Shown: positions 40,199 to 54,081 of the stretch, one piece after another
Numbering within the stretch: the stretch's first letter is position 1
Layout: each line of letters opens with the position of its first letter
Assembly: GCF_037996645.1 (NCBI RefSeq)
Contig: NZ_JBBMXV010000003.1
Coordinates: 186,001 to 250,000 of the forward strand
DNA: 64,000 nt
Direction: 5' to 3'
DNA from: Halalkalicoccus tibetensis
GTDB lineage: Archaea > Halobacteriota > Halobacteria > Halobacteriales > Halalkalicoccaceae
Translations under genes and position numbers: made by a program
The notes under the pieces: model-generated
The model's database searches: none
The model's input: only the letters and a program-made list of their open reading frames with translations
Told to the model about the DNA's origin: nothing

Positions 40199-41299
40199 AT
40201 GGATCCACGCATCCGCGAACACGCGGAGGTCATCGTCGACCACTCGACCGACATCGCCGAGGGCGACGACGTGATCGTCAGCGCGCCCGCCGTCGCAAGC
40301 GATCTGGTGGTCGCGCTCCACGAGGTGCTCGGCGATCGCGGGGCGAACCCGATCTCGCTCAACGCCAACGAGCGCGCGAAACGCGCCTTCCTTCGCGCGG
40401 CCGACGACGAGGAATTCGAGACCCCGGATCACGAGCAAGCGTTGATGGAGGAGACGGACGCGTTCATCCACCTCCGCGCGAACGAGAACGCCACCGAGAC
40501 CAGCGACGTCGACCCCGAGACGACGGCGGCCTACTCGGTCGCCCAGCAGCCCATCCGGGAGGAACGCCTCTCGAAGCGCTGGTGTCTCACGCAGTTCCCC
40601 GCGCCCGCGAACGCCCAGCTCGCTGGAATGAGCACCGAGGCCTACGAGAACTTCGTCTGGGACGCGATCAACAAGAACTGGGACGAACAGCGCGAGTTCC
40701 AGGCGGAGATGGTCGAGATCCTCGACCCCGCAGACGAGGTCCGGATCGTCTCGGGCGACCGAACGGACGTCACGATGAGCGTCGCGGGCAACACCACCCT
40801 CAACGACTACGGCGAGAAGAACCTCCCGGGAGGGGAGGTCTTCACCGCCCCCGTCCCCGACAGCGTCGAGGGCTCGGTCTTCTTCGACAAGCCGCTCTAT
40901 CACCAGGGCCGTGAGATCACCGAGGTCGCCCTCGAGTTCGAGGGCGGCGAGGTGGTCGAACATTCCGCAGGGCAGAACGAGGACCTTCTCACCGAGGTGC
41001 TGAACACCGACGACGGCGCGCGCCGGCTGGGCGAGCTGGGCATCGGGATGAACCGCGACATCGACCGGTTCACCTACAACATGCTGTTCGACGAGAAGAT
41101 GGGTGACACGGTTCACATGGCCGTCGGGATGGCCTACGGCGAGTGCGTCGGCGAGGGGGTCGAGGAGAACGAGAGTGCGGTCCACGTCGACATGATCGTC
41201 GACATGAGCGAGGACTCGAGGATCGAGGTAGACGGCGAGGTCGTCCAGCGAAACGGTACCTTCCGATTCGAGGACGGGTTCGAGGAACGCGAGGCCTGA
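40199..41299 (+). CDS. M29-family metalloaminopeptidase
   Basis: A 366-aa cytoplasmic aminopeptidase of the AmpS/PepS type. Metal ligands are visible in LPGGEVFTAPV (Glu), SAGQNEDLL with the following ELGIGMN helix, and DTVHMAVGMAYGE plus VHVDMIVD (His and Asp). Start ATG 40199 (MDPRIREHAEVIVDHS) matches the family's N-terminus; the long frame running in from 37709 is antisense to ltaE and spurious. Role: peptide turnover with broad N-terminal specificity. Confidence 0.92.
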   Translation: MDPRIREHAEVIVDHSTDIAEGDDVIVSAPAVASDLVVALHEVLGDRGANPISLNANERAKRAFLRAADDEEFETPDHEQALMEETDAFIHLRANENATETSDVDPETTAAYSVAQQPIREERLSKRWCLTQFPAPANAQLAGMSTEAYENFVWDAINKNWDEQREFQAEMVEILDPADEVRIVSGDRTDVTMSVAGNTTLNDYGEKNLPGGEVFTAPVPDSVEGSVFFDKPLYHQGREITEVALEFEGGEVVEHSAGQNEDLLTEVLNTDDGARRLGELGIGMNRDIDRFTYNMLFDEKMGDTVHMAVGMAYGECVGEGVEENESAVHVDMIVDMSEDSRIEVDGEVVQRNGTFRFEDGFEEREA

Positions 41300-41439
41300 G
41301 CGGCGCAACGGCCTCGAACACGAACGGCGAACAAAGCGAGCCGTAAGAAACACGAGGCCTGAACTCCTTCCCCCTTCCTCCGACCCCTCTCTCACCGCCG
41401 CGGCGATCCGTCGTCCGGGGTCGCCCCGATTAGTTAACA

Positions 41440-41488
41440 ACTCGACCCCGAATACGGGGGTAGTTTTACTAACGATCGGGGTTCGAGT
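41440..41488. repeat. Imperfect inverted repeat upstream of the Cys-rich peptide gene
   Basis: ACTCGA-CCCCGA (41440-41451) and TCGGGGTTCGAGT (41476-41488) are reverse complements apart from one extra base. They flank AT-rich sequence with TAGTT/ACTAAC and a CCCCG-aata-CGGGG hairpin (41446-41459). The element ends ten bases before the TATA box. This is a plausible two-site operator for a regulator, perhaps a metal sensor. Confidence 0.5.
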
Positions 41489-41497
41489 AGCAGCACG

Positions 41498-41506
41498 ATT
41501 TATTAA
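41498..41506 (+). promoter_or_regulatory. TATA box of the Cys-rich peptide gene
   Basis: ATTTATTAA ends 25 nt before the ATG at 41532, at the spacing of leaderless haloarchaeal promoters. It shows that the very short frame has its own transcription signal. Confidence 0.6.
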
Positions 41507-41531
41507 CTCGGCACTCTTCCCGTAGAACGCT

Positions 41532-41612
41532 ATGTCAGCCTGCTGCGAACCCGTCTGTACGTGTACCGGCACCTGTACCTGTGACAGCGACTGCACCTGC
41601 GACGACTGTTAG
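41532..41612 (+). CDS. 26-residue cysteine-rich peptide, metallothionein-like (new)
   Basis: A complete ATG-to-TAG frame of 26 codons encoding nine cysteines (positions 4, 5, 9, 11, 15, 17, 21, 23, 26), with Thr, Asp and Gly between them. Three Cys-Thr-Cys pairs are regularly spaced (9-11, 15-17, 21-23), the arrangement of thiolate-cluster metallothioneins. There are no histidines, aromatics or basic residues. Cysteine is otherwise rare in haloarchaeal proteins. A TATA box and an inverted repeat lie upstream. Likely role: binding Cu(I), Zn or Cd, or acting as a redox buffer. I recognise no family; function is inferred from composition only. Confidence 0.75.
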   Translation: MSACCEPVCTCTGTCTCDSDCTCDDC

Positions 41613-41660
41613 GACCGGCTTCGATTCGACGTATCGGAACGGTTACTGTTCTGCCATGTG

Positions 41661-41666
41661 TTTATA
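41661..41666 (+). promoter_or_regulatory. TATA box of the FkbM methyltransferase gene
   Basis: TTTATA lies 25-30 nt before the ATG at 41691. This supports that start over the in-frame ATG at 41658. Confidence 0.6.
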
Positions 41667-41690
41667 GTTCCCACGGTAGTAGCGACGGCC

Positions 41691-42524
41691 ATGAGCGTCC
41701 TCGACCGAGTACGGGGGGTCCGCCAGGGACGATCCGTTCCCGAGCTCGCCCGAACGGCGCTGCGGTCGGTTCGCGCCCGTGCGAGCGACGCCTACTGGGC
41801 GACCCGCGGGGAACGGACCGTCACCGTCGCCGGCGTTCCGGCTACGTTCCGGCTCGCCGACCGCGACGACGCTCGGTTCCTGCGGCGCTTCCTCGCCATC
41901 GAGGGGACGATGATCGCGGACCTGCTTCGCGAGCTCCGCCCCGACGACGTCTTCTGGGACGTCGGCGCGGCCGGCGGTTTCTACACCTGCTTCGCGGGCA
42001 GGCTCCTCGACGACGAGCGCGTGGTCGCCTTCGAGCCCGACCCCGACGTGCGGGTGACCCTCCATCGGCGCCTCGCGGGCCGCGACGCCGACCCGCGGGT
42101 GTTCGACTGTGCCCTCGCGGACTCGACCGGAACGGGGACGCTCGGCAACCCGGGCCGCGAGCGCGAAAACTGGCAGGGGACCCCCTCGCTGGCGACCGAG
42201 CCCGGAACCGACGGCCTCGGGGTCGAGACGCGGGCCGGCGACGACCTCGTCGCCGCGGGGGAGGCCCCCCCACCGACCGTCGTGAAGATCGACGTCGAGG
42301 GCGCCGAATCACTGGTGATCGAGGGGCTTGCCGACTCGCTGGCCCGCGAGGACTGCCGGCTGGTCTACTGCGAGATCCACCGCGAGAGTGAGCGACGGCG
42401 CTCGACCGCCGACTACGGCTCCAGCCCGGAGGCAGTCGAGCGATCGCTCGCGGAGCTCGGGTTCAGCGTCGAGCGCCTCGAGGACCGGGGCGGCGAGTAC
42501 CTAATCAAGGCCGAGAAGCGCTGA
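41691..42524 (+). CDS. FkbM-family methyltransferase
   Basis: A 277-aa SAM-dependent methyltransferase. VFWDVGAAGGFYTCFAGR is motif I, VVAFEPDPDVRVTL motif II and PTVVKIDVEGAESLVIEGL the FkbM signature. Members O-methylate sugars or polyketides and often act with surface glycan genes; none are adjacent here. Its stop abuts the convergent membrane protein gene at 42525. Confidence 0.9.
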   Translation: MSVLDRVRGVRQGRSVPELARTALRSVRARASDAYWATRGERTVTVAGVPATFRLADRDDARFLRRFLAIEGTMIADLLRELRPDDVFWDVGAAGGFYTCFAGRLLDDERVVAFEPDPDVRVTLHRRLAGRDADPRVFDCALADSTGTGTLGNPGRERENWQGTPSLATEPGTDGLGVETRAGDDLVAAGEAPPPTVVKIDVEGAESLVIEGLADSLAREDCRLVYCEIHRESERRRSTADYGSSPEAVERSLAELGFSVERLEDRGGEYLIKAEKR

Positions 42525-42929
42525 TCAGGCGAGCCCGAACTCCCGGAGCACGTCCGCGAGCACGTGCGCCGCGAGCACGACCGCGCTGAACGCCGCGAGC
42601 GTCCGATCCACGGGCCGCAGCAGGGCGACGAGCGCGCCGCCGATCAGCAGGTGGGTCGCGATCCGCTCGCCGTGAATCGCCAGGTCGGGGAACACCAATT
42701 CCTGGTCGGTGAAGGCCCGGACGGGGTCCGAGACCGCCTTCGTGAAGTGTGACCAATCGCCGGCCTTCACCCGAGCGATGAGGAAGTGATCGAGATCGAC
42801 GAACACGCTGAGGAGCAGGCCGTAGATCCAGAGGGCGATCTTCGCGGACAGCGACCGTTCGCGGGCGAGGAGGGCGGCGGCGAGCGCGCCGACGACCCCG
42901 CCGATCGCCGCGTGTTCGTGCGAGTACAT
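42525..42929 (-). CDS. Membrane protein with conserved His/Asp (metal-dependent hydrolase-like)
   Basis: A 134-aa protein with about three to four hydrophobic helices. It keeps the spaced acid/His pattern of small membrane-bound hydrolases of the YdjM type: HEHAAIGG at 4-11, SVFVDLDHFL, IHGERIATHLLIGG and AAHVLADVL. A TTATAA-like box (rc of 42953-42959) is about 25-30 nt upstream. Activity is inferred from the pattern only. Confidence 0.68.
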   Translation of the reverse strand: MYSHEHAAIGGVVGALAAALLARERSLSAKIALWIYGLLLSVFVDLDHFLIARVKAGDWSHFTKAVSDPVRAFTDQELVFPDLAIHGERIATHLLIGGALVALLRPVDRTLAAFSAVVLAAHVLADVLREFGLA

Positions 42930-51436: not shown

Positions 51437-51781
51437 TCAGGCCGCCATCTCCCGACACGTCTCGGCGCACTCGCGCAGCTTCTCCGCACAGAGCTGACAG
51501 TGGTCGTCGTCGTGTTGCTCGCACTCCTCGGCACATTCCTCGCAGGCCTCCGCGCAGGTCGCCGCGAGCTCGGCGTGGTAGCCCGAATCGCGCGCCATGA
51601 ACCGGGCGTGCAGCGTCGTCAGGTCCGCGACGTCGCGACAGAGCCGGATACAGCGGGCCATCTCCTCGCCCTCGCCCGCACAGGCGTCCGCACACCACTC
51701 GCAGGCCTGGGCGGCCTCCAAACAGTTGTCCATACACTCGCTCATCTCGTCGTCCAGGTGGTCGATCTCGGTAAGTGCCAT
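51437..51781 (-). CDS. DUF326 four-helix-bundle copper-binding protein
   Basis: A 114-aa cysteine-rich protein with 15 cysteines in C-x3-C and C-x2-C pairs on four helices (MSECMDNC, ACEWCADAC, ARCIRLCRD, TCAEACEECAEEC, HCQLCAEKLRECAETC). This is the pattern of cytosolic Csp3-like copper storage proteins, which fill the bundle core with Cu(I). The lack of a signal implies a cytoplasmic location. It probably sequesters copper, a common need in haloarchaea. It stands alone, upstream of rpiA. Confidence 0.9.
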   Translation of the reverse strand: MALTEIDHLDDEMSECMDNCLEAAQACEWCADACAGEGEEMARCIRLCRDVADLTTLHARFMARDSGYHAELAATCAEACEECAEECEQHDDDHCQLCAEKLRECAETCREMAA

Positions 51782-53931: not shown

Positions 53932-54081
53932 ATGCCACACTGCAACCACTGCGAAGCGCACGTCTCCGAGCGGTTCGAGCGCGTGTTCGCCGACGAGAAC
54001 GGGCACATCCTCGCCTGTCCCAGCTGTTCGGCGAACGCGGGCATAGCGGAGGCCGCGAGGCTCCGTGCGCGAAAGGCATAA
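53932..54081 (+). CDS. Zinc-knuckle mini-protein
   Basis: A 49-aa protein with cysteine pairs C4-x2-C7 and C29-x2-C32 (MPHCNHC... and ACPSC) bridging a short beta hairpin (RFERVFADENGHIL) and a C-terminal helix. It matches the style of haloarchaeal zinc-finger mu-proteins. It lies upstream of the GIY-YIG gene with 51 bases between. Function unknown; probably RNA/protein binding or regulatory. Confidence 0.75.
   Translation: MPHCNHCEAHVSERFERVFADENGHILACPSCSANAGIAEAARLRARKA

Follow-up and report, generated by a model that had tools for sequence, protein, structure and literature searches.

To our knowledge, metallothionein-type proteins are barely documented in archaea, and a search of an open-access library returned nothing on an archaeal metallothionein. 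Among described systems, the copper metallothioneins of Neurospora crassa and Agaricus bisporus (family 8; PDB entry 1t2y) are proteins of 25-26 residues with seven cysteines, CxC motifs and the C-terminal spacing CxCx3CxCx2C. The beta-domain of animal metallothioneins concentrates nine cysteines within a few residues of one another, enough to bind three divalent ions (M3Cys9). Haloarchaea possess C(P)XCG zinc microproteins, which are small, easily missed and built as a folded domain with two knuckles comprising four cysteines (PMC11241148). Mycobacterial polycysteine attenuators are short, leaderless, Cys-dense open reading frames in which the Cys codons are contiguous; the operon that they precede is regulated. 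Finally, the copper-storage protein of the Csp/DUF326 type, of about 114 residues, carries many cysteines and has DUF326 repeats.

The gene described here lies in a window of 64,000 nucleotides, the whole stretch of DNA that was analyzed, from the haloarchaeon Halalkalicoccus tibetensis (genome G000). Gene positions are given in window coordinates and upstream offsets are counted from the ATG.

41532-41612, plus strand: gene of a Cys-rich microprotein of 26 aa, ATG to TAG, supported by its translation, seven homologues and a third-position and synonymous bias

The translation, MSACCEPVCTCTGTCTCDSDCTCDDC, has cysteines at positions 4, 5, 9, 11, 15, 17, 21, 23 and 26, a spacing of CC-x3-CxC-x3-CxC-x3-CxC-x2-C, and K, R, H, F, Y and W are all absent from it. 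Re-translation reproduced exactly the frame, the nine cysteine positions and the lack of basic and aromatic residues reported in the initial annotation. An in-frame stop is located 9 nt 5' of the ATG, which is therefore the only possible ATG start. Cysteine accounts for 35% of the residues, compared with 14% in the runner-up among 119 ATG frames of 20-60 aa within the window and with a maximum of 22% across 104,407 frames from 548 windows simulated with a 5th-order Markov model.

Searching whole genomes by protein and by profile recovered seven homologues. One belongs to a congener (G005, MACCDPVCTCTGTCTCDSDCTCDDC), three belong to the sister genus (G007, MSACCDPVCTCDDVCTCEDDCDCASC, with close variants in G008 and G009), and three belong to one genus of another family (G188, MSACCEPDCACEPVCTCGDDCSCDDC; G314, MIACCEPDCTCEPACTCGDDCSCDDC; G414, MFACCEPDCACDPVCTCADDCSCDDC). 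The nine cysteines are invariant and in register in 8/8 carriers and across both families; apart from them, only M1, A3, P7, T16 and D20 never vary. The initial annotation had asked whether the frame is conserved in related species, and the seven haloarchaeal homologues show that both the frame and its cysteine spacing are. At the nucleotide level, seven of the nine Cys codons alternate between TGT and TGC among carriers with the residue constant. G000 and G005 differ at 9 nt, all in third positions and 8 of them synonymous (dN/dS 0.02), and G188 and G314 are separated by 9 synonymous and 4 nonsynonymous changes (dN/dS 0.04). When three pairs were pooled, third positions accounted for 22 of 29 differences (p 3e-6). 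The TGT/TGC switching and the third-position bias argue for selection on the peptide and not on RNA or DNA; an Rfam search of the locus found nothing. Thus, the peptide frame is a real conserved coding gene and its cysteine spacing is under purifying selection.

The taxonomic distribution of the gene is patchy. Of about 410 genomes of the order, 8 carry it: 5 of 10 genomes in the window's family and 3 of 125 in the second family. No carrier was seen in the rest of 392 order genomes or among 393 genomes drawn from the phylum, counts in which very small genes can escape the initial scan and some genomes are incomplete MAGs. Mobile spread via phage or plasmid was considered and set aside, as searches of phages, plasmids and viral contigs gave no match. 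The scatter of carriers is compatible with an accessory gene subject to loss, probably together with a single inter-family transfer, a tentative history for a peptide of 26 residues. Weak order-wide matches (E 0.01 to 1), in those cases inspected, were fragments of other frames. A match in a Coriobacteriia MAG (L040:5632-6156, plus strand, JAUSBY010000015.1) was also rejected as a homologue and represents a different, signal-bearing Cys-repeat protein. Its N-terminus is Tat/lipobox-like, its CTC/CSC-type repeats number about ten and its C-terminal sequence is GGGGGHYWYPT; it looks like a Cys-repeat RiPP precursor or a secreted metal binder and is unrelated to the peptide.

The best-supported reading, to which we give a probability of about 0.7 from sequence features, is that the peptide is a minimal thiolate-cluster, metallothionein-like metal binder. 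Its composition (26 aa, 35% Cys, three CxC motifs and no aromatics) and its nine cysteines, invariant in eight carriers, are typical of metallothioneins. Searches of Pfam and NCBIfam with all eight members gave no family up to E 10, and the only match in a PDB profile search, also up to E 10, was 1t2y, the copper metallothionein of N. crassa; its E of 7.9 is not significant and is no evidence of homology. In that alignment, the C-terminal CxCx3CxCx2C spacing is identical to that of the peptide, and it is the spacing given for fungal family-8 metallothioneins (PMC4755600). However, only the CXC-X3-CXC-X2-C half of the family-8 pattern (X2-CXC-X5-CXC-X3-CXC-X2-C-X3) fits. The peptide has nine cysteines instead of seven, an N-terminal CC pair and X3 rather than X5 between the first CxC pair, and it is acidic, without basic residues, and archaeal. 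Because the profile libraries return no match and the full family-8 pattern does not fit, we do not assign the peptide to any named metallothionein family. In contrast with the animal beta-domain, it stands alone, is shorter, has no Lys and is spaced differently in its N-terminal half; homology with that domain is not shown. It also differs from the C(P)XCG proteins, having nine cysteines and no knuckle, with no CxxCG motif in any of the eight members. Note however that work on C(P)XCG proteins found that Cys-rich haloarchaeal microproteins can be metal-free, which counts against a metal-binding role, and that AlphaFold2 does not reliably predict Cys-metal sites (PMC11241148).

Under the metallothionein-like reading, a cytosolic microprotein of 26 residues would wrap its nine thiolates around a small metal cluster. 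By analogy, the cluster could hold about five to six Cu(I) or, as M3Cys9, the three divalent ions of a metallothionein beta-domain; nine cysteines is the ligand number of M3Cys9 clusters (PMC3447885). The peptide would buffer or detoxify a soft metal, with Cu(I), Zn and Cd all plausible, and its gene would form a transcription unit by itself, driven by a dedicated conserved promoter. The model predicts that the gene is transcribed and translated, that the peptide binds a particular metal in a cluster of defined stoichiometry, and that metal or thiol stress acts on the promoter. If the peptide does bind metal, archaea would have a minimal thiolate-cluster protein that lacks lysines and functions in multimolar salt. 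Its size allows chemical synthesis, so the metal question is directly testable. Furthermore, genes of this kind with only 26 codons are discoverable by comparative genomics, and this one is not recognized by the Pfam or NCBIfam profile libraries.

The region immediately upstream of the gene contains the following elements.

41432-41531, plus strand: putative conserved promoter or regulatory region, with a gap-free alignment across five genomes from two genera
41434-41441, plus strand: box 1, TTAACAAC, at -98, TTRNYAA-type in 5/5 carriers of the window's family
41466-41473, plus strand: box 2, TTACTAAC, at -66 in G000, G007, G008 and G009
41500-41507, plus strand: box 3, TATA-like, TTATTAAC, at -32 to -25; at -32 in G000, G005, G008 and G009
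41440-41449 and 41479-41488, plus strand: arms of an inverted repeat, ACTCGACCCC/GGGTTCGAGT, 90% complementary

When the five carriers in the window's family are compared in 20-nt blocks from -100 to -1, the two genera agree at 0.47-0.66 of positions per block, and identity falls to 0.28 further upstream and to 0.21-0.27 past the stop, the chance level downstream. Judged by this alignment, the peptide gene has its own conserved promoter-like region. Carriers of the family share three TTRNYAAC boxes at -98, -66 and -32, with exceptions: the end of box 1 deviates in G005 and G008, box 2 is degenerate in G005 (TTACTAGT) and box 3 is degenerate in G007 (TTATTACA). Box 3 doubles as a TATA-like element at the leaderless distance, where the initial annotation had placed a TATA box, and this fits a leaderless start. 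TTWT is the haloarchaeal TATA motif and 72% of Hfx. volcanii transcripts are leaderless (PMC4983044). The inverted repeat reported just upstream of the frame is indeed present but is not evident in register in relatives, and consequently we make no functional claim for it. A scan of the whole G000 and G007 genomes for the box pair returned matches at the peptide gene only. The reversed pattern, used as a control, gave a few matches too in these genomes; the weight therefore lies in both genomes having the pair at the same gene and not in the number of matches. We also tried GTTNNNAAC as the repeated site, but elsewhere it is just a chance-like palindrome and TTRNYAAC describes the sites better.

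In the second family, a perfect 15-nt palindrome, TGGTACAnTGTACCA, abuts the peptide start codon in G188 (C3:471637-471651) and G414 (C1:893140-893154). It has no second copy within one mismatch in the whole G188 or G414 genome, and it is missing from G314. A bolder extension of the metallothionein-like reading, for which we put the odds somewhat short of even, is that these peptides constitute an independent archaeal metallothionein family, with the size of the smallest fungal proteins but with nine cysteines, that arose or spread separately from the known ones. A dedicated regulator would bind the three TTRNYAAC boxes, spaced by about three helical turns, in one family, and a different control would act through the start-codon palindrome in the other.

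The genes surrounding the peptide in the window define its genomic context.

40199-41299, plus strand: M29 aminopeptidase, upstream neighbour (Pfam PF02073); same neighbour in G005, G007 and G008
41691-42524, plus strand: FkbM-type methyltransferase, downstream neighbour (Pfam PF05050)
42525-42929, minus strand: YdjM-like membrane protein (match below the cut-off of Pfam); G005, G188, G314 and G414 also have a homologue near the peptide
51437-51781, minus strand: 15-Cys DUF326 protein of the copper-storage type (Pfam PF03860), not linked to the peptide

The window's family displays the order M29, peptide and FkbM, except in G005, where a convergent YdjM gene lies downstream; G001 and G003 have M29 and FkbM in the same order and lack the peptide. 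In the second family (loci L042, L043 and L044 of G188, G314 and G414, respectively), the peptide is located between a NikR-type regulator (NikR_C match, E 2e-22) and a cupin, the latter directly downstream. In G188 and G414, a gene for a calcineurin-like phosphoesterase separates NikR from the peptide; it was either inserted there or lost in G314. The NikR-cupin region occurs in 10/10 genomes of this genus and the peptide in 3/10; the presence of the pair with or without the peptide counts against the metallothionein-like reading. The YdjM-like gene is found near the peptide in 5/8 carriers of the two families, with 33-40% identity between families, and in the second genus it is near the cupin in only 1/7 non-carriers (a second-family example is L042:6504-6974, minus strand). 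An association or a common transfer is possible, but the gene also occurs in some non-carriers and offers a lead only. The peptide is unlinked to any metal operon, and no metal gene neighbours it in the window's family.

The initial annotation had linked its minimal metallothionein candidate to the copper-storage-type protein encoded 10 kb away. Three congeners that lack the peptide (G001, G003 and G004) have the DUF326 gene in the same position, and in the carrier G007 a search of about 28 kb around the peptide did not find it. The contextual argument therefore fails. The proposal loses this functional link, while its conserved frame, its selected cysteine spacing and its standing as the best functional reading are retained. 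Both proteins have many cysteines, but they are unrelated in sequence, as had been noted, with no DUF326 repeat and no Pfam match in the peptide.

Changes in the downstream gene bear on an alternative in which the frame encodes a Cys-responsive leaderless leader peptide, with ribosomes stalling at Cys codons when cysteine is scarce and thereby controlling the gene that follows. The frame is short, Cys-dense and apparently leaderless, mycobacteria provide a precedent (Canestrari et al., as cited in PMC9031893), and the next gene is on the same strand in 7/8 carriers (the FkbM methyltransferase in 4 and the cupin in 3). In the mycobacterial frames, however, the Cys codons adjoin one another and a regulated operon follows, whereas the peptide has spaced CxC motifs, one CC pair only and no constant downstream gene, this being FkbM in the window's family, convergent YdjM in G005 and the cupin in the second family, none of them a sulfur gene. 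The FkbM gene moreover has its own TATA-like element, GTTTATAG (41660-41667), and GTTTATA precedes it also in the peptide-free G001 and G003. Attenuation would need neither the exact cysteine spacing nor the conserved A3, P7, T16 and D20. With a downstream gene that differs by lineage, a promoter of its own for FkbM and exactly spaced cysteines, this explanation is unlikely.

An equally unlikely alternative is a structural or regulatory microdomain of the Zn3Cys9 type that would bind a partner protein or DNA instead of buffering metal. Nine cysteines are the ligands of such clusters in CXC and pre-SET domains (PMC3447885), and small zinc proteins are numerous in haloarchaea (PMC11241148). CXC domains, however, distribute their nine cysteines across about 50 residues in a compact fold (PMC3447885), whereas the peptide has 17 non-Cys residues, none of them basic, and variable loops. 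Less probable still is that the peptide serves as a redox or thiol buffer, or as a sink for persulfide, arsenite or silver, and not as a metal-ion cluster protein. A free-thiol content of 35% of residues and carriers scattered as for an accessory gene would suit such a role, but it has no obvious need for an invariant spacing of nine cysteines, and it shades into the metallothionein-like reading. That the peptide is the precursor of a ribosomally made, post-translationally modified peptide is highly improbable; although the RiPP-like Coriobacteriia protein surfaced in the same scan, that protein bears a Tat-like signal and is built differently, the carrier loci have no maturase, protease or transporter in common, and the peptide has no leader/core split. 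A chance open frame or shadow coding within a repetitive stretch, suggested by the shortness of the frame and its short direct repeats, has a negligible probability and is refuted by conservation, given the homologues in three genera, the synonymous bias and the simulated windows, in agreement with the initial annotation.

The window contains another small Cys-containing frame at 53932-54081 on the plus strand, a 49-aa sequence (MPHCNHCEAHVSERFERVFADENGHILACPSCSANAGIAEAARLRARKA) with CxxC and CPxC knuckles that is a typical haloarchaeal zinc-ribbon microprotein.
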